Positions 33,418 to 47,432 of a DNA stretch of 64,000 nucleotides are shown here, piece after piece; position 1 is the first letter of the stretch; each line of letters opens with the position of its first letter. This stretch comes from Patescibacteria group bacterium (lineage in GTDB: Bacteria > Patescibacteriota > Patescibacteriia > Patescibacteriales > Patescibacteriaceae). The DNA is taken from assembly GCA_028704945.1 (NCBI GenBank), contig JAQWEL010000001.1, forward strand, positions 1 to 64,000. Direction: 5' to 3'. A program made the translations under genes and the position numbers. The notes under the pieces are model-generated. The model had not been told where the DNA came from. It saw nothing but the letters and a program-made list of their open reading frames with translations, and ran no database searches.

Positions 33418-34437
33418 TTATTTTATAGTTTCAGCTAAAACAATTTCAAAACCTGTTTTAAAATCTATCCGGCCATTTTTAAAGTCAGAGTCAAGTTTTA
33501 ATAATTCATTTAAAATATTTTTTAATGCGGCTACGCTATAATGACGACTTTGATTAATAGCTTTCTGAACTACATAAGAATGAAGGCCTAATTTCGAGGC
33601 AATCTTTGCGGAGCTTTCCCCTTTTTCAAGATAACTGCGTACGGCTAAAATATTCCTAAAATGATTAAAAATCATGCTCATTAAATAAACTGGCTGGATA
33701 TTGTCAGCCAACAATGCCTCAAAAGAAGCTATCGCCAACGTTTTATTCTTAGTTCCGACAGCGTCAGTCAAAGTAAATATAATCGTTTCTGTTTTAACCA
33801 TAGTTAGTAACTTAATGCTTTCAACTGTAATAATACCGCCACTATCTTGGTCGGCTAAGACATAAGCAGCTAACTTTTTAATTTCATTAGTAAGAAGCCA
33901 TAAATCTTTAGCATAGCTTTGCGCCAAAATCTTAGCTGCTGGAGCGCTAATTTTCGCCCCAGTCTCATTAACTTGACCGACAATCCAGCGTTCTAAATCT
34001 ATCCCAGCCAGATAGTCGAAACGTTCTATTAAATTAGTGCTAAACAAAAAATTATGATACTTCTTTTGAGCTACGGTTAAAACCGACTCTTTATCAGCGC
34101 TATCTAATAACTTAATTTCACCTTTTCTGTCTGTCACCAAACGAGATTCGTAAACAATTAAAATATTATCTCCGCTCGCTTTTATCGTCTCAGTCAACTC
34201 TGTTAAAAAATCTTTATCTTTGCGCGACAAAGCGTCTTCTATGATAATCATAGCCTTGCGAGCGAATAAAGAACCCGTGCCCATTGTTTCTTTAAGCTCT
34301 TCAATGCTCCACTTTAGGTTGTCAAAACAAAAAACACCGGAACCGCTTAAGTCTATATCTTTCTTAAACTTTTCTTTCAGTGCCTTTATTTTTTCTTTGG
34401 CGCGAAAATCATCCGGACCGTATAAATAAATTATCAT
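33418..34437 (-). CDS. holA: DNA polymerase III subunit delta
   Basis: Clamp-loader delta subunit that opens the sliding clamp. The order fits: N-terminal AAA+-like domain (MIIYLYGPDDFRAKEKIKAL), middle domain with AKDLWLLTNEIKKLAAY and the C-terminal collar (HSYVVQKAINQSRHYS). ATG at 34437 begins the recognised N-terminus; the longer frame overlaps murJ. 339 residues. Confidence 0.9.
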   Translation of the reverse strand: MIIYLYGPDDFRAKEKIKALKEKFKKDIDLSGSGVFCFDNLKWSIEELKETMGTGSLFARKAMIIIEDALSRKDKDFLTELTETIKASGDNILIVYESRLVTDRKGEIKLLDSADKESVLTVAQKKYHNFLFSTNLIERFDYLAGIDLERWIVGQVNETGAKISAPAAKILAQSYAKDLWLLTNEIKKLAAYVLADQDSGGIITVESIKLLTMVKTETIIFTLTDAVGTKNKTLAIASFEALLADNIQPVYLMSMIFNHFRNILAVRSYLEKGESSAKIASKLGLHSYVVQKAINQSRHYSVAALKNILNELLKLDSDFKNGRIDFKTGFEIVLAETIK

Positions 34438-34444
34438 ACTATTT

Positions 34445-36064
34445 TTATATACCTCTTGCCTCACTCTGGTCTTCGGGGCTAATCTTTTTATAAAAAAATC
34501 TGTTTTTAATAGACTGTAAAAAATTAAACAATTCTTCGGAGCCAAGCAAATAACAACTTAAAACATAAACAAATAAAGCTCCTAAGCCAGCTAAGCCACC
34601 CTGGGTTAATATTCCCAGCAAGGTATTTGTGTTTATCCAATGCTCAGCCATGATCTTAATAATTTGAGCGGCTGATGTTGCCGCCAAAGCAGCTAAAGAA
34701 AATTTAGCAACTGAAATAAAAATCCTCTTTTCATCAAGTGAGCCTATTTCTCTTCTTAAAATAATCCACAAAAAACCCATATTAAAAAAACTTGAAATAG
34801 AAAAAGCTAAGGCTAATCCGCTTACACCATACCAATGACCTAAAAACCAAGCGCCAACAATATCAATCGCAACTGAAAACAAGCCGACATAAAAAGGTGT
34901 TTTAGAATTATGTCTAGCGTAGAACACCCTTGTTAAAAGAGGAATAGTGGCTTGCGCGAAAAAAGACAGCGCAAACATAAATAAAGTATCCATTGTTAAA
35001 ATCGTATCCTGCCAATCAAAATGACCGCTACCCAAAGAGGCTCGAACCAATTGCGCTCTCAAAACAATAAACAAGGCTGAGGCAGGAATAATAAAAAACA
35101 TGGTTTGTCGCAATGTTCTAGAAAACTGCTCAATTAATTTTTTTCGATTAAAAGCATAAACTGATAGCGTCGGAAAAACAGCGATAGCGAAAGAGATGCC
35201 GAAAACTCCAACAGGAAAGGACTGCAAATTATTAGCTAAATTAAAAATAGTCAAACTTCCCCCGACTAAAACAGAAGCGATGGCGGTTGTTACCAAGAGA
35301 TCAAATTGGCTGATAGCTAAACTCATGGTTCTTGCTACCATCATTTTAAATAAATCTTGGACATTTTTATTTTTCAATTCAAAATATGGACGCCATCTAA
35401 AGCCCAACAAATAAATACTTGGGATTTGAATGGCAAAGTGGACAAATGAGCCGAGTACTACACCCCAAGCTAAACCCCGGACACCCATCTGAGGAACAAA
35501 ATAAAGCGCGCCGATAATAATGCCGATATTGTAAAAAATTGGTGACAATGAATAAACAAAAAATCTTTTAGCTGACTGTAGCATTCCTCCTAAGACCGCT
35601 GACATTCCTAAAAGTAGCGGCGACAAAAACATTACTCGACTTAATTGTGCGGTCAAAGCAATCTTTTCCGGGCTAAATCCAGGCGTAATCAATTTAATAA
35701 TTTGTGGAGCAAAAACAACGCCAATAATGCCGACTATTAATAGTCCACCAAATAAAATATTAATAATGTTTGAAGCTAACCGCCAAGCTTCGCTGTTGTT
35801 TTCTTTTTTCTCTTCTTTAAAAAGATGCGAAAACAAAGGAATAAAGCCGGCTGATAACGCGCCCAAAACAAGTAAATTATACAACAAATCAGGCACCCTA
35901 AAAGCGGCGTAATAAACATCTAACTCATCACCCGCTCCAAATTGACCAGCCAAAATACGATCTCTAAGTAAGCCCAACAAACGGCTAATAAACGAAGAAA
36001 AACCGACTAATAAAGCGGCTATAGCAACGCTATCAATTTTTTTTGCAAATAATCTTTTAATCAT
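34445..36064 (-). CDS. murJ: Lipid II flippase MurJ
   Basis: Fourteen-helix MOP-superfamily flippase moving lipid II across the membrane for peptidoglycan. N-terminal FSSFISRLLGLLRDRILAGQFG and the repeated GLAW/VLGSF region match MurJ/MviN. 539 residues. It is 7 bp upstream of holA and likely in one unit. Confidence 0.93.
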   Translation of the reverse strand: MIKRLFAKKIDSVAIAALLVGFSSFISRLLGLLRDRILAGQFGAGDELDVYYAAFRVPDLLYNLLVLGALSAGFIPLFSHLFKEEKKENNSEAWRLASNIINILFGGLLIVGIIGVVFAPQIIKLITPGFSPEKIALTAQLSRVMFLSPLLLGMSAVLGGMLQSAKRFFVYSLSPIFYNIGIIIGALYFVPQMGVRGLAWGVVLGSFVHFAIQIPSIYLLGFRWRPYFELKNKNVQDLFKMMVARTMSLAISQFDLLVTTAIASVLVGGSLTIFNLANNLQSFPVGVFGISFAIAVFPTLSVYAFNRKKLIEQFSRTLRQTMFFIIPASALFIVLRAQLVRASLGSGHFDWQDTILTMDTLFMFALSFFAQATIPLLTRVFYARHNSKTPFYVGLFSVAIDIVGAWFLGHWYGVSGLALAFSISSFFNMGFLWIILRREIGSLDEKRIFISVAKFSLAALAATSAAQIIKIMAEHWINTNTLLGILTQGGLAGLGALFVYVLSCYLLGSEELFNFLQSIKNRFFYKKISPEDQSEARGI

Positions 36065-36108: not shown

Positions 36109-37527
36109 TTAAAGTAAGCTGGCTATGGTTGGCAAAAAATCTTTTAAATCATGCTTCTGCCCATTTTCAAACAAGCTTTTCCCAGACAAATCAGCTTGGG
36201 CCAAGATTGCTTCTGTCGGATTACAATTAGGTTTTTTTTCAGGTAAATCAGTTATCATATTTATAACTGCTTCCGCCTGACCATAAGTGCCGGCTATAAT
36301 CAAAGAATCGTTTGCGCCTAAAACCTCTTTGGCTATTTTACCAACCAAATTATCAGCCTTTTTAACAGCCTCGATTGTTTTGTTGACATCACCATCGTTG
36401 GCGGCAATCGCTGGACCATTCAAAACAGCTACTATAAAATCAAAACCAACTTTTAATCCTTCGATAATTTCGGCCTCAATAACTTCGTCGGCCGGAACTA
36501 CATTATTGTCGTCAACCGTCAATCCAGCTAAGCTGATTTGGCAATCGGATAAATCAATATTTTTAAAATTTAAAATCGATAAACTATCAACTATCAAAAG
36601 ATTCTTTTTGCCGGCCGCTGCGGTTGCGCGAAATAAATTTATACTTTTAGCTTGGTTAATCAGCCCGCTTAAATTAAGCTCGGCTACATCATATAATGAT
36701 AAAAATTTTAAACCAACAGGACATTTTTTCCGATCAAATCTGTCAAAATCTTCACTTCCAAAAGTTTCGGCTAACTCTGACAATCTGCCGGCAGCTGAAA
36801 AAAACATCACCGCATCGCCATCCTCAATAACCGCCAAAGGATTGCCGTATTGGTCAACCTGAATAGTAGGAGGAAGGTCGGTAAAAGCTACAGTAATCAT
36901 CTCTCCCAAATTAGTATGCTCTTCTCCTAAACCACGAGTTAAAGCTTCATAGTATTTTTCAGTCTTAGCAAAATCTCTTGTTTGATCAAGCGCATAATTA
37001 GCGCCGGCTAAAGTTGCCAACTTTACTCCTCCGATTAAAAAACTATCAAATTCTTTAGGATCAATCTTGCTATCGACAATCAAATGAATAAAAACATTCT
37101 CAATATTTTTTCTAATCATCAATTCAATCACAGTCTTCGCTGCCATAATAATCGATCCGGATTCATCAGGAGCAATAATTAAATGAAGTTTAGTATTTTT
37201 CTTTTTAGCTACTTTCAAAAAATCAATTAATTTTAAATTTTTATCAAAAACACCATCCTCTATATTTAATTTAAGAAATTCTTCTTGGCTTAAAGTTTTT
37301 TTTGAATTAAAAATATAATCAAAAGCAGCTACTGGAATATCTTCCAGATTACTTTGATTATCGGCTAAACCAAACAAAATACTTGGATAATCTGATTTAA
37401 GAGAAACCAAATTAGGCGTATTTGAAGAAGACCAAGCATTTGCTGGGCCGTCTTCGGCTACGCCATAGCCGTTAATTAACAATAAAACGGTTGATTTCTT
37501 TTTGATTTTCGTTGTCTTTAAAGGCAT
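36109..37527 (-). CDS. Phosphoglycerate-mutase-like protein (iPGM fold), catalytic residues lost
   Basis: Aligns by eye along most of the 2,3-BPG-independent mutase GpmI (LLLINGYGVAEDGPANAW, TPNLVSLKSDYPSILFGL, LHLIIAPDESGSI, FIHLIVDS, GANYALDQTRDFAKTEKYYE). Key positions are gone: Asp of the first metal motif (LDGWG) is Asn, the phospho-Ser motif GNSEVGH is absent (DNQSNLED), the Arg of GRYYAMDRD is replaced, and the DHGN metal motif reads TYGQ. I infer a pseudoenzyme or a changed function. ATG at 37527 is used; the frame extends to a TTG. It follows the enolase-like gene. Confidence 0.7.
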   Translation of the reverse strand: MPLKTTKIKKKSTVLLLINGYGVAEDGPANAWSSSNTPNLVSLKSDYPSILFGLADNQSNLEDIPVAAFDYIFNSKKTLSQEEFLKLNIEDGVFDKNLKLIDFLKVAKKKNTKLHLIIAPDESGSIIMAAKTVIELMIRKNIENVFIHLIVDSKIDPKEFDSFLIGGVKLATLAGANYALDQTRDFAKTEKYYEALTRGLGEEHTNLGEMITVAFTDLPPTIQVDQYGNPLAVIEDGDAVMFFSAAGRLSELAETFGSEDFDRFDRKKCPVGLKFLSLYDVAELNLSGLINQAKSINLFRATAAAGKKNLLIVDSLSILNFKNIDLSDCQISLAGLTVDDNNVVPADEVIEAEIIEGLKVGFDFIVAVLNGPAIAANDGDVNKTIEAVKKADNLVGKIAKEVLGANDSLIIAGTYGQAEAVINMITDLPEKKPNCNPTEAILAQADLSGKSLFENGQKHDLKDFLPTIASLL

Positions 37528-37596: not shown

Positions 37597-38760
37597 TTAA
37601 ATAAAATCAGCCAGCTCACGTTCTATTTCAATTAACCGATTATATTTGCTAACTCTCTCTGATCTGGCTAATGAACCAAATTTAACCCCGTCAAACGGTA
37701 AGGCAACCGATAAATCTGCCAAAAAATCATCTTCGGTTTCATTAATAGCTGAAGCTAAAATCAAGCCATAATTATATTTTTTGACTTGTTTAACAAATTT
37801 AAGCAAGTCAAAAAAACCAGCAAATTGATTTAATTTTATAACCACGGTGTTGCCTATCTTTTGATCAATAAATTTTTGAGCTAAGTCATGATTGCTTATT
37901 TGGCTTGAGGCTAAATAAAAAATATCACGAAATTCAGCGCTAATTTTTTTCCAAGATTCTTTATCACTGATGGCCGCCAAATCTTCTAAATAGCCGATAT
38001 TATAGCGTTTAAACCATTCTTGATAAACTCCGGCTAAATCAGTTGGACCTAAATAATGCCTATCCAATTGGAATAGATATTTTTTAGTTTCCGTGTCAAA
38101 AAGATGATGAGCGCCAATGCTTACTCCCAAAAAAATGTCATTTTCAAAATTGAAACCGGCCTTTAAAGCCGCTGTTATGATAAATTCAAAGGCATTAATA
38201 CTTGAAACTAAGTCTGGAGCATAGCCACCGAATAAGCCGATGTCGGTATCAAAACCTTTTTTAAAAAGAAGTTCACCGAGAATATTTCTAGTTTTAACAA
38301 ATTTATCCAAAAACTCTTTCAATGAGCTTTTATTATGGATTGACGGTATCAGCAAATATTCATCAAAATCCAAATTGGTATCTCCATAAAGCCCGCCATT
38401 AAAAACATTCAATAGGGGTTTGGGCATTTTGGGTTCAAAATCATAATAATCAGATAAAATTCTGTATAACGGTTTACTATCTAAGATAGCCAAACATTTG
38501 GCAGCCACAATATTTGCTAAAATCGCGCTCTTATTACCGATTACTTTATTTTCTTGCCATAAAACGCTTGCCGCCTCAATAAAATCGTCTTCAATATTAG
38601 CTCCTTCAAATTCTTTTATAACCAAATCATTTTCTTTTATTTCCAAATCTAAGTCAGCCTTAATTATCTTGTCATCAGACAAATAAAAAGACAGCCGGTT
38701 TGTTTCAAAGCCAGAACCGCTAAAAACTTTACTGATAATTGCCCGTTTAATATAGGCCAT
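37597..38760 (-). CDS. Enolase-like protein, catalytic residues largely lost
   Basis: Full-length enolase fold by pattern: NVFNGGLYGDTNLDFDEYLL, GGYAPDLVSSINAFEFIITA, TVVIKLNQFAGFFDLLKFVK, SLARSERVSKYNRLIEIERE. Relative to yeast enolase, Glu211 (GDEGG) is Phe in GLFGG, metal Asp246 is Ser in GVSIGAH, metal Asp320 is lost (ASSQ), and the His-Arg-Ser of SHRSGETED reads ASAINETED. Glu168, Glu295, Lys345 and Lys396 positions seem kept. Probably not an active enolase. It sits between pgk and the mutase-like gene. Confidence 0.75.
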   Translation of the reverse strand: MAYIKRAIISKVFSGSGFETNRLSFYLSDDKIIKADLDLEIKENDLVIKEFEGANIEDDFIEAASVLWQENKVIGNKSAILANIVAAKCLAILDSKPLYRILSDYYDFEPKMPKPLLNVFNGGLYGDTNLDFDEYLLIPSIHNKSSLKEFLDKFVKTRNILGELLFKKGFDTDIGLFGGYAPDLVSSINAFEFIITAALKAGFNFENDIFLGVSIGAHHLFDTETKKYLFQLDRHYLGPTDLAGVYQEWFKRYNIGYLEDLAAISDKESWKKISAEFRDIFYLASSQISNHDLAQKFIDQKIGNTVVIKLNQFAGFFDLLKFVKQVKKYNYGLILASAINETEDDFLADLSVALPFDGVKFGSLARSERVSKYNRLIEIERELADFI

Positions 38761-38765
38761 AAAAA

Positions 38766-39950
38766 TTATTTGACTAAACCAACTAAGCCAGGCATTTTTT
38801 CTCCACCCAAAAATGACAATGAGGCTCCGCCACCAGTTGAAACCCAGTCAATATCATCAATCATCTTAGTCATCTTTAAAGCTTCAATCGTTTCACCGCC
38901 ACCGACAACGCCAAACGCTCTACCCTTAGATTGTATAGCGACTGCTCGCCCGACAAATAATGTCCCTTGCCTTAATCTTTCGTTTTCAAACAAACCCATC
39001 GGACCATTCCAAATTAAAGTCTTGGCTTTTTTTAAGTAGGTCGCAAACAATTTCATAGTTTCTGGACCGATATCATAAATATATTCATTACGTCCGACTT
39101 CATTAATTTTTTTGACAGCAATTTGTTTAAAATTCTTATCAGACACGATTACGTCAATCGGTAAAATTATTTTCTTGTTATCAATTTTTTTAGCTAATCT
39201 AATATTTTGCGGACTAGCCAACGACTTGCCAATGGGAAATTTTCTGGCTGCTAAAAAATTATTAGCAATAGCGCCACCTACTAAAATATAATCGGCCCTT
39301 TTAGAAAGTTTTCTTAAAAGCGTAACTTTGGTATCTATTTTGGATCCACCCATAACAGCAACAAAAGGCTTGGTGGGATAAACTATTTTTTGTAAATTGC
39401 TAACCTCTTCTTCAACCAAGCTGCCGGCATAACTTGGCAAATATCGCTTAACCGCCGCAACTGAAGCATGGCTTCGATGAGACACGGCGAACGCATTATT
39501 AATATAAATATCGCCCAGAGTGGCTAACTGTTTAGCGAATTTAGTATCGTTTTTAGTCTCACCATAGTAAAAACGAATATTTTCTAAAAGCAAAATCTGG
39601 CCTTTTTTCAAAGCTTTTACTTCATTTTTTAGTTTCTCTGACCCAATCAAGCTGTCAGAGAAGACAACTTTTTTCTTTAATAGCTTGCCAAGGCTGATTG
39701 CTAAGGGTTTAGTTGTAAAAGCCTCTTTATCTTTAATCTTGCCAGTCGAACTTATTTTTGGATCGCCTAAGTGAGTCATTAATATTACCGTCGCTCCATG
39801 CTTGATTAAAAATTTAATCATCGGAACATTGGCGACAATTTTGAATTCTTCCTTAATTTTACCTTTATTCATCGGCACATTAAAATCAACTCGCATTAAA
39901 ATTTTTTTACCATCAAACGAATTAATTTGATTAATTGTTTTTATTTTCAT
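38766..39950 (-). CDS. pgk: Phosphoglycerate kinase
   Basis: Glycolytic kinase making ATP from 1,3-bisphosphoglycerate. Family motifs RVDFNVPM, LLLENIRFYYGE, NAFAVSHRSHAS, VMGGSKIDTK, IWNGPMGLFE and WVSTGGGASLSFLGG are in order. The usual Asp in NDAF is Asn, HLGRP is HLGDP, and GGGDT is GGGET, so it is divergent but looks functional. 394 residues. First gene of the pgk, enolase-like, mutase-like run. Confidence 0.93.
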   Translation of the reverse strand: MKIKTINQINSFDGKKILMRVDFNVPMNKGKIKEEFKIVANVPMIKFLIKHGATVILMTHLGDPKISSTGKIKDKEAFTTKPLAISLGKLLKKKVVFSDSLIGSEKLKNEVKALKKGQILLLENIRFYYGETKNDTKFAKQLATLGDIYINNAFAVSHRSHASVAAVKRYLPSYAGSLVEEEVSNLQKIVYPTKPFVAVMGGSKIDTKVTLLRKLSKRADYILVGGAIANNFLAARKFPIGKSLASPQNIRLAKKIDNKKIILPIDVIVSDKNFKQIAVKKINEVGRNEYIYDIGPETMKLFATYLKKAKTLIWNGPMGLFENERLRQGTLFVGRAVAIQSKGRAFGVVGGGETIEALKMTKMIDDIDWVSTGGGASLSFLGGEKMPGLVGLVK

Positions 39951-39982: not shown

Positions 39983-40005
39983 ACACAATTTTTACAAACA
40001 AAAAA

Positions 40006-40028
40006 ACACGACCGTAAACCAGTCGTGT
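40006..40028 (-). terminator. Terminator after the HtrA-like gene
   Basis: ACACGAC (40006-40012) with GTCGTGT (40022-40028) and a T7 run on the minus strand. Confidence 0.85.
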
Positions 40029-40051
40029 CTTAATATTAAATTTCTAAAAAA

Positions 40052-41149
40052 TTATCTTAAGTACTCCCCTAAGGTGAGCTCAACTGTCGTGTCTTTATTA
40101 TCTCGTCTGTACTTGATATAAATCTTATCACCTGATTTATAACTGGCAATCACTTCAGCTAAATCATTAGTTTCATTAAGTTCGATATCGTCAATTGATA
40201 AAATCAAGTCCCCTTCTTTCAAGCCAATTGAATCGGCTGGGCTATCAGTTATTACGGCCGGCTCCTTATCTTTTTTTGATAAAATAACACCTTTTCTCGG
40301 ATGAGCAGAGATTTCTTTGCTTATATTTTTATAATTAACCCCCAAAAATGCTCGCTTAATCAGATTTTCTTTTAATAAAGAATTTTGAGCGCTTAACATC
40401 AGGTCGGTTGAGATTGATTGCCCGTCGTTATTAATCAAAGCGACAATGCTACCGTCTAAATTAACTGCTGCCAACAAACTTTTGTCACCTATTGGAATAT
40501 TTAAATTACGTGAAGCATTTTCGCTTAAATATACGCCACCTGTCTTATTCGTATCCTGAAGATAATTGACTGATATTTTTGGACCGAGACCATAGCTAAC
40601 AACCATTTCGCCTGGTTTTAAATTTTTGGCTGCGGTCAAATTAGCAACATTCCAACCACTAACATTATCAAGCTTTAAAAACCAGAAACCACTTACGCCA
40701 TCAAAAATTGCTTTACTTAAATTACGAATTTTTCTGTCCGCGCCAGCCACAAGATAAGTATTCTTGATGGTTTCTTCGGAAACTTTATTATCCTTAACAT
40801 CAAACCTAACAATTAACCAGCCGTCGTTAGTAACGACTACGCCTTGTCCGGCTAAATCTGCCTGATTATAAATTTGTTCGCCCGGCTTCTTCTTATAGAC
40901 ACCGACTAAATTACTTTTAGCATTAGTGATTAAATCAGGTAATCTATCGGATTGTTCAACTACTATTTTTTTAGCATCACGAATAATCGTGTTATTATTG
41001 GTATAAGCGTTAGGCACAACACTGCTTGAATTTAAGTAGCCTTTAATGCCATAAAAAAAGAACCAACCGCCGAAAAAACCGCTTAAAACACCAGTAACCA
41101 TAACAATAATTAAATACTTCATAATTTTGGGTCGATTTTTATCTTCCAT
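40052..41149 (-). CDS. HtrA/Deg-like PDZ protein, protease residues lost
   Basis: One N-terminal membrane helix (about residues 10-35), a trypsin-like domain and a C-terminal PDZ domain (RAFLGVNYKNISKEI, DSPADSIGLKEGDLILSIDD). The catalytic triad is missing: the region GQGVVVTNDGWLIVRFDV has no His, SGFWFLKLDN lacks the Asp, and the GNSGG motif reads GDKSLLAAVNLDG. Likely a pseudoprotease or chaperone-like sensor. ATG at 41149 follows the upstream stop by 4 bp. Confidence 0.75.
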   Translation of the reverse strand: MEDKNRPKIMKYLIIVMVTGVLSGFFGGWFFFYGIKGYLNSSSVVPNAYTNNNTIIRDAKKIVVEQSDRLPDLITNAKSNLVGVYKKKPGEQIYNQADLAGQGVVVTNDGWLIVRFDVKDNKVSEETIKNTYLVAGADRKIRNLSKAIFDGVSGFWFLKLDNVSGWNVANLTAAKNLKPGEMVVSYGLGPKISVNYLQDTNKTGGVYLSENASRNLNIPIGDKSLLAAVNLDGSIVALINNDGQSISTDLMLSAQNSLLKENLIKRAFLGVNYKNISKEISAHPRKGVILSKKDKEPAVITDSPADSIGLKEGDLILSIDDIELNETNDLAEVIASYKSGDKIYIKYRRDNKDTTVELTLGEYLR

Positions 41150-41153
41150 AAAA

Positions 41154-41927
41154 TTAAAGCCAAACAGCTGTGGCAAACAATGTTATCCAGCCGATTAATA
41201 TAACCGCTGAATAAGATTTTAATTTAAATTTATTAAACTCTTTATTTAAAATATCGGAAACAATCATAATGACAAAATAATAAGAGCTAGCTAAAATCGC
41301 TCCCAACATATTGTAGTCATTGGGTAACAATATTAAAACAAAAAAAAGTTCAAGTAAAACTAACCAGGCGATAAATAAAAATGGCAACTCTTTTTTAAGA
41401 GAAAATTTCGACACCCAAAGACTTTGATAAACAACAACCAAAAGTATAATAGCTATTGGTAAAAAAACTTGCCAAACTCTTAAACTCAATAATGATTTTA
41501 AACCTAAGGCGCTTGAGCCAGCCAAAAAAACAATAACCGTATTAGCATAATAAGACAGGCTTTCTAAGCTAAATGAAGTGTAACGCGATTGTTGATTAAA
41601 ATAGAAAAAAACAAAGCGCCAGTAAAGATAGGTGGCAATCAAAAGTATTGAAATAATCGTTTGTAAAAGCCAAGGTTTATCAATAATGGTCACATAAGTT
41701 GTGACTGAAACAGCCAAGATAGCTGGCATAATAGCAAAATTATACCACTCGCGACCATCATTCTTTTTACAAATAATCAAAGCAGCTAAAAAATTAGCTA
41801 TCAAAGCAAAACCAAGCACCAACCAAAGAAGCGTGGCGGGAAACTTAACCAAAGCTTCAAGCGCTAAACCGATTGAAACCGTGATGGTAAAAGGTATGAA
41901 ATTAGCGATAGAATTTTTTATTTTCAT
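41154..41927 (-). CDS. Hypothetical membrane protein, about seven helices
   Basis: 257 residues, seven or eight hydrophobic helices, short loops. No family recognised. It lies 2 bp after the beta-propeller gene and 4 bp before the HtrA-like gene, so the three form one unit and may work together at the cell envelope. Confidence 0.7.
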   Translation of the reverse strand: MKIKNSIANFIPFTITVSIGLALEALVKFPATLLWLVLGFALIANFLAALIICKKNDGREWYNFAIMPAILAVSVTTYVTIIDKPWLLQTIISILLIATYLYWRFVFFYFNQQSRYTSFSLESLSYYANTVIVFLAGSSALGLKSLLSLRVWQVFLPIAIILLVVVYQSLWVSKFSLKKELPFLFIAWLVLLELFFVLILLPNDYNMLGAILASSYYFVIMIVSDILNKEFNKFKLKSYSAVILIGWITLFATAVWL

Positions 41928-45917: not shown

Positions 45918-47432
45918 ATGCAATATTTTATTTATTTTGCGATTTTGGCCATTGGTATTTTGATTGGTTATTGGTTTAGAAAACAACAAGCTCTTAAAAA
46001 TGTTGCTAGCTCTGAATTAAAAGCCGAAAAAATCATTAATGAGGCTAAATCTCGTGAAAAACAAGTTATTTTAGACGCTCAAGAAAAATCCCTAAAAATT
46101 ATTGAGGAATCTAAAAAAACAATTGATTCTGAAAGAAAAGATGTTTTGCGCCAAAAGGAAAAATTAGAGGAAAAAGAAAACTTTTTTTCTCAAAAATTAA
46201 TTGATTTACAGGACAAACAACAGGATTTATACGAAAAACTCAATAAAATTGAAGAAGCTAAGGATAAAATCAAGCAAATAAAACAAGAACAAATTGAAAA
46301 ATTAGAAAAAATTGCTCAAATGAATAAATCTGAGGCTCAGGACGTTTTATTTAAAAATGCTGAAAAAGAAGTTAGTGAATCCTTAATGTCTCGCATTAAT
46401 AAGTTAGAAAGAGAAGGGGAAGATGCTTTAGAGGAAAAAACCAGAGAAATTATCTCTTCAGCCATGCAACGTATGGCCAGCCCCATTACTAACGAACTTA
46501 CCACTACTAACGTCGAGCTTCCTTCGGATGAATTAAAAGGCAGAATTATCGGCCGCGAAGGCAGAAATATAAAAGCTATTGAAAATTTAACCGGCGTTGA
46601 GATTATTGTTGATGATATGCCTAACGTCATAACTATTTCTGGTTTTTCAGGCATTAGAAGACACATTGCCAAAAGAGCTTTGGAAATATTGATAAAAGAC
46701 GGTAGAATCCACCCAACCAAAATTGAAGGAGCCGTAGAACAAGCCAAAAAAGATTTAGCAATTGACATTAAAAAAGCAGGGGAAGATGCTCTATATGAAT
46801 TAGGCGTAACTGGCTTTGATACCAAATTGACTCAAATCTTAGGGCGAATGAAATATAGAACCAGTTATGGTCAAAATGCTTTAAAACACAGTATTGAAGT
46901 AGCTCATTTGTGTGGTTTATTAGCAGAAGAATTAGGCGCTAATACTGCTATGGCTAAAAAAGCTGGCTTATTGCATGACATTGGTAAAGCAGTTGATCAC
47001 GAAGTGAAGGGTAGTCATCCTGAAATTGGCGGACAAATTGCTAAAAAATTCAACTTGCCCGAAGAAATCATTGATGCGATTGAAAATCATCATGAAGACA
47101 AACCTAAATTCTTAATGACTTTAATAGTTAAGGCAGCTGATGCCATATCGTCAAGTCGCCCCGGAGCCAGGAATGATAGCCTGGAAAAATATATCCAGCG
47201 CTTAGAAGAATTAGAAAAGATTGCTGAAACTTTTGATGGCGTTAATAAAACTTATGCCATCCAAGCTGGTAGAGAGGTGAGGGTATTTGTTGATTCGGAA
47301 AAGGTTAACGATATTGAATGTTACGAATTAGCTAAGAATATCGCTAAAAAAATAGAAGAAGAACTTAAATATCCAGGAGAAATCAAAGTCAATCTTTTGC
47401 GTGAAATGCGCGTAATTGAGTACGCCAGATAA
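45918..47432 (+). CDS. rny: Ribonuclease Y
   Basis: Membrane-anchored endonuclease starting mRNA decay. An N-terminal helix (1-20), a long coiled coil (25-190), a KH domain (KGRIIGREGRNIKAIENLTG) and an HD domain with KAGLLHDIGKAVDHE and ENHHED are in order. 504 residues. Downstream a stable hairpin (47450-47479) precedes the next gene. Confidence 0.96.
   Translation: MQYFIYFAILAIGILIGYWFRKQQALKNVASSELKAEKIINEAKSREKQVILDAQEKSLKIIEESKKTIDSERKDVLRQKEKLEEKENFFSQKLIDLQDKQQDLYEKLNKIEEAKDKIKQIKQEQIEKLEKIAQMNKSEAQDVLFKNAEKEVSESLMSRINKLEREGEDALEEKTREIISSAMQRMASPITNELTTTNVELPSDELKGRIIGREGRNIKAIENLTGVEIIVDDMPNVITISGFSGIRRHIAKRALEILIKDGRIHPTKIEGAVEQAKKDLAIDIKKAGEDALYELGVTGFDTKLTQILGRMKYRTSYGQNALKHSIEVAHLCGLLAEELGANTAMAKKAGLLHDIGKAVDHEVKGSHPEIGGQIAKKFNLPEEIIDAIENHHEDKPKFLMTLIVKAADAISSSRPGARNDSLEKYIQRLEELEKIAETFDGVNKTYAIQAGREVRVFVDSEKVNDIECYELAKNIAKKIEEELKYPGEIKVNLLREMRVIEYAR

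Follow-up and report, generated by a model that had tools for sequence, protein, structure and literature searches.

Pseudoenzymes and the displacement of one gene by another are known kinds of evolutionary event. A non-glycolytic, protein-binding role of enolase is likewise established: in B. subtilis, enolase influences mRNA decay and binds RNase Y with a Kd of about 100 nM (PMC8152036). In that organism both tasks fall to a single active protein; at the locus described here, separate genes would carry catalysis and the proposed second role. Our literature search, confined to open-access sources, returned no report of paired, operon-conserved pseudoenzymes of enolase and cofactor-independent phosphoglycerate mutase (iPGM), and none on the mutases of Falkowbacteria.

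The window, meaning the whole 64,000-nucleotide stretch of DNA analysed, is part of contig C8 of a 0.98-Mb, 98%-complete Patescibacteria genome and encodes an enolase homologue that has lost most of its active site (Table 1). The gene begins with ATG and runs as one open frame with no internal stops; that frame, together with a codon-position GC like that of its neighbours, rules out a frameshift, internal stop or other coding artefact. The protein resembles enolase (phosphopyruvate hydratase, EC 4.2.1.11; TIGR01060, PF00113) in whole-length homology, fold and place behind pgk, but differs in its active site, in falling below the equivalog cut-off and in sharing its genome with a second, true enolase. 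Its Pfam Enolase_C match of 152 bits (cut-off 21.5) marks strong enolase homology, and the equivalog model TIGR01060 gives 201.6 bits, below its cut-off of 300. The enolase-like hypothetical protein NF006223 / PRK08350 is similarly related to enolase without being assigned enolase function by its model, but the window protein is not a member, matching over the C-terminal part with 23.8 bits, far below that model's 624-bit cut-off.

Table 1. Features of the window around the pgk operon.
Feature	Coordinates	Strand	Description
holA, DNA polymerase III delta subunit	33418..34545	-	overlaps murJ
murJ-like lipid II flippase	34445..36064	-	next gene downstream of the iPGM homologue
pseudo-iPGM	36109..37527	-	472 aa; iPGM_N domain still recognisable (62 bits)
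pseudo-enolase	37597..38760	-	387 aa; barrel kept, 8/12 active-site residues lost, N-terminal (lid) domain shortened and diverged
pgk, phosphoglycerate kinase	38766..39950	-	sole PGK of the genome, ordinary, 409 bits
terminator-like hairpin	40003..40031	-	12 pairs and a T tail
HtrA/DegP-like protein	40052..41176	-	membrane-anchored, PDZ domain
RNase Y-like gene	45918..47432		divergent from the operon

Catalytic residues of the enolase homologue are replaced, not misaligned. In yeast numbering, the losses are S39, H159, E211, D246, D320, H373, R374 and S375, while E168 (E134 in the window protein), E295 (E259), K345 (K309) and K396 (K360) are kept. The replacements are H159 to Y125, E211 to F177, D246 to S214, D320 to S286, H373 to S337, R374 to A338 and S375 to I339, and the S39 loop is absent. 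Because the flanking motifs align without gaps (GDEGGFAPD in intact enolases against GLFGGYAPD here, LGIDAAA against LGVSIGA, SHRSGETED against ASAINETED), residues that are present but shifted can be ruled out. Among the magnesium ligands D246, E295 and D320 the protein retains E295 only, and from the acid/base and substrate set (K345, E211, H159, H373, S375, R374 and the lid residue S39) it retains K345 alone. The predicted structure has the complete enolase fold, an N-terminal capping domain and a barrel, with the N-terminal domain shortened (pLDDT 92), and superposes on solved enolases with Z 47–48 and an rmsd of about 2.0 over 376–380 residues; the model took an alignment with enolases as input, and shows a sequence compatible with the fold, not an observed protein. 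With the fold kept in the model and the catalytic residues lost, the protein qualifies as a pseudoenzyme, and we infer that it lacks enolase activity.

These results agree with a preliminary description of the gene, which had proposed that the enolase fold and several lysine and glutamate positions persist while Glu211, Asp246, Asp320 and the His-Arg-Ser loop are gone. The residue losses hold one by one, with H159 and the S39 lid loop to be added, and both structure prediction with superposition, which that description had named as a check, and the search for shifted residues, which it had named as a possible refutation, came out in its favor. It had also placed the gene where a glycolytic enolase would be. 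Indeed, pgk ends 5 bp upstream, nearly all relatives carry the operon enolase directly behind pgk, and across the order the usual arrangement is pgk-eno-iPGM, in many cases with a second iPGM in tandem.

The next gene downstream, absent from the preliminary description, encodes an iPGM homologue that is equally dead by its residues. It scores 88 bits to a solved iPGM and resembles that family (TIGR01307; PF06415 and PF01676) in being homologous with both domains recognisable, but it lacks the metal ligands and the phosphoserine residue. D12 is changed to N and the S62, K336, D403, H407, D444, H445 and H462 positions are lost; all seven residues of the two-metal site (D12, S62, D403, H407, D444, H445, H462) are replaced, with the alignment weak around S62. 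The predicted structure is a moderate model (pLDDT 77, pTM 0.59) whose best matches are iPGMs. Since both homologues lack their catalytic residues, two consecutive enzymes of one pathway are, judged by sequence, without active sites in one operon.

The genome retains an intact enolase elsewhere. On contig C9 lies a second enolase (385 bits) with all 12 active-site residues, which bears out the earlier suggestion that an intact copy be sought. It sits about 20 bp behind a histidine-phosphatase-type gene (G000:C9:133291-133839; 144.5 bits to His_Phos_1), a pairing seen also in G001 and G002. All NCBIfam models score this phosphatase gene below cut-off and leave its mutase identity undecided; the gene may supply a replacement phosphoglycerate mutase activity, and no further iPGM besides the window copy was found in this genome. 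With one pgk (the window's), one pyruvate kinase and the intact C9 enolase, lower glycolysis is therefore probably complete without the window enolase, the mutase step being the least certain.

Damage to the operon enolase extends across relatives, well beyond what the preliminary description covered. We scored 12 active-site positions in 122 enolase sequences, and 15 positions in the iPGMs behind them, from relatives that, where named, are mostly Candidatus Falkowbacteria (Patescibacteria). The operon enolase is damaged in 20 genomes. All 20 carry a second enolase, against 5 of the 49 with an intact operon copy (Fisher p 5e-13, with the caveat that these genomes are related and hence not independent); a phylogeny-free test of the association was dropped for want of enough independent pairs. 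Every second-type enolase examined (27/27) is intact. Not all damaged copies need be dead: S39N enolase retains basal activity (PMC4450660), so the single changes S39G or E211L (G046, G061) need not abolish activity.

The operon has come apart in more than one way. Three genomes (G004, G008, G012) lack an enolase in the interval from pgk to an iPGM-like gene whose D12 has become E, and the sole enolase found in each is of the second type; a fourth (G011) is alike, except that its enolase was found solely as a fragment at a contig end. Genus g4 has lost the operon enolase outright. At four loci (L161:4663-6222, L162:4753-6267, L163:6745-8265 and L164:2046-3617), a full-length iPGM-like protein comes directly after pgk, the enolase gene being absent from between them; its D12 has become E, and further sites are altered. 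Same-genus genome G001 was searched for a pseudo-enolase and yielded the iPGM-like gene only, 140 bp from the contig start; those 140 bp encode no visible enolase end.

In the neighbouring clade, insert domain and metal site are both gone from the iPGM, which is now about 300 aa long (mostly 281–315 aa). By its sequence, the sister-lineage iPGM is a stable pseudoenzyme of that size. Three members of the window's family (G003, G007, G010) and two other genomes (G045, G066) pair a single intact operon enolase with a truncated iPGM, which indicates that the iPGM can degenerate first. The gene after the dead iPGM in the sister lineages lies on the opposite strand, making retention merely as a spacer, or through polar effects on a downstream gene, unlikely. 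murJ follows the iPGM in the window's family only, not in the sister clade.

Mutase genes vary further among these genomes. Where the operon is intact, most Falkowbacteria have a tandem pair of iPGM genes after eno, both apparently intact and on separate branches (L183:251-3424 and many other loci). In G029 a single, intact enolase is followed by a full-length iPGM in which nearly every catalytic residue is replaced (L128:8897-10480 / L013:1-1489), and an intact iPGM lies elsewhere, at G029:C51. The 95%-complete G007 (L053) has the truncated dead iPGM and no match to iPGM_N or His_Phos_1, thus no phosphoglycerate mutase by these families.

Phylogenies place the window protein among the operon enolases and away from the second type (support 100). 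The enolase tree unites all damaged enolases in one clade, where the four from the window's family form long branches; that these nest inside the sister decayed clade is doubtful, as long branches meet there. In the pgk tree, free of enolase acceleration, the window's family forms a group separate from the remaining damaged lineages, at modest support (80). This would imply at least two parallel conversions, and parallel conversion in two sister groups appears likely from these sequences. The second-type enolases from the two groups cluster as a single clade, a pattern consistent with one early gain followed by differential loss, and the existence of two distinct enolase lineages suggests displacement by a foreign gene. 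One locus labelled Planctomycetota (L144, Prado159) carries an enolase that groups with Falkowbacteria operon enolases; its contig or bin is probably mislabelled.

Selection has preserved the damaged proteins of the relatives. In close pairs, dN/dS is 0.03–0.13 for damaged enolases and 0.05–0.17 for truncated iPGMs; pgk and the intact enolases or iPGMs compared alongside span the same range. For G006/G009, the most damaged pair (6 and 4 residues lost, E211 changed to F in both), the value is 0.19, while pgk and the active enolase stand at 0.14. Because these values of about 0.03–0.19 resemble those of active pgk, the relatives' proteins are kept for something and are not junk, which favors re-purposed over dead. 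The dN/dS of the window enolase itself was set aside, as dS is saturated at the distance of even its closest relatives, and column retention and the relatives' pairs were used instead.

We judge that a second-type enolase took over catalysis and that the copies in the operon persist as proteins without catalysis, probably in a binding or scaffold role, at a probability of roughly 0.55. Beyond the relatives' purifying selection, this rests on the C9 enolase, the 20/20 against 5/49 distribution of second enolases, the fold model, and the window gene itself, which gives indirect signs of selection in its lack of stops and its retained barrel columns. Of the barrel columns that intact relatives conserve and that lie away from the active site, the protein keeps 49 of 71, against 4 of 12 catalytic positions and 18 of 107 variable columns. 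The alternative that both operon genes are decaying after displacement, and are merely unbroken so far in the window lineage, is unlikely. It draws on the enolase N-terminal domain, where only 13 of 58 conserved columns are kept, on the loss of the gene in other genera, and on the window iPGM-like gene, which is full length and colinear with its same-genus counterpart but only 25% identical (dN 0.95, dS 1.36); at a dN/dS of about 0.7, constraint on it is weak. When the neutral decay of an intact enolase gene from a relative was simulated down to 36% identity, however, the 30 runs left a mean of 15 stops and a minimum of 8 where the window gene has none, and both the barrel and the purifying selection on similarly damaged copies speak against decay. 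The iPGM ratio, and the loss of the operon enolase in g4, where its role would be dispensable, also count against retention as a non-catalytic protein.

Two further readings assign the protein a definite job. It could be the cell's RNase Y-binding enolase, a degradosome scaffold whose catalysis has moved to the other gene, as the B. subtilis interaction would allow; an RNase Y-like gene is indeed divergent from the operon both here and in G006. This link is one of neighbourhood only, that gene is not near the operon in the sister-clade loci read, and the iPGM is left unexplained, so that we regard the idea as distinctly improbable. Re-use of the barrel for a different reaction seems to us very improbable. 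E168, E295 and K396 are kept in 20/20 damaged operon enolases, 18/20 have all three metal ligands, and the window protein has K345 as well; but two of its three metal ligands are lost, so that metal-stabilised enolate chemistry would be unavailable, and an alignment of four damaged copies revealed no evident new conserved active-site motif.

Retention as a non-catalytic protein suggests the following course. An ancestor would have had a pgk-eno-iPGM operon, and 2-phosphoglycerate dehydration would have passed to a second enolase from another lineage (the C9 copy in this genome), although the order of takeover is itself conjectural. Relieved of catalysis, the operon enolase would have shed its lid serine, acid/base and metal-ligand residues, keeping the barrel and the place by pgk, and the operon iPGM may have taken the same course. 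Serving as a scaffold or regulatory subunit, the protein might now use its barrel to bind a partner, or else a phospho-ligand by way of the E168/E295/K345/K396 cluster, and the preserved role would be a moonlighting function already present in the intact ancestral enolase. The preliminary description's view that the enzyme, whether dead or re-purposed, has stayed in its place in the operon gains from the C9 enolase, the common pgk arrangement and the confident fold model. More tentatively, and with somewhat less than even confidence, we propose that in Falkowbacteria enolase and iPGM have repeatedly turned into a dedicated non-catalytic set beside pgk, including a new, stable iPGM family of about 300 aa without insert domain or metal site.

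If true, this would be a natural separation of a glycolytic enzyme's moonlighting role from its catalysis. Enolase moonlighting is hard to separate from essential catalysis, and here evolution seems to have given each a gene of its own. The neighbouring lineages make up a series with intact copies at one end and fully dead ones at the other, which would make a non-glycolytic role directly testable through binders of the dead copies. They also carry a warning for annotation: eno and iPGM in the pgk operon of these genomes need not supply lower glycolysis.

Upstream of pgk, the HtrA/DegP-like protein has 51 homologous ORFs in related loci, mostly in the same position. No serine-protease motif of the GNSGG or NNHV type was found in the window protein or in any of these ORFs, and the family is possibly a third, order-wide pseudoenzyme near the operon. 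Between this gene and pgk lies the terminator-like hairpin, because of which transcription of pgk-eno-iPGM may be separate from that of the genes upstream.
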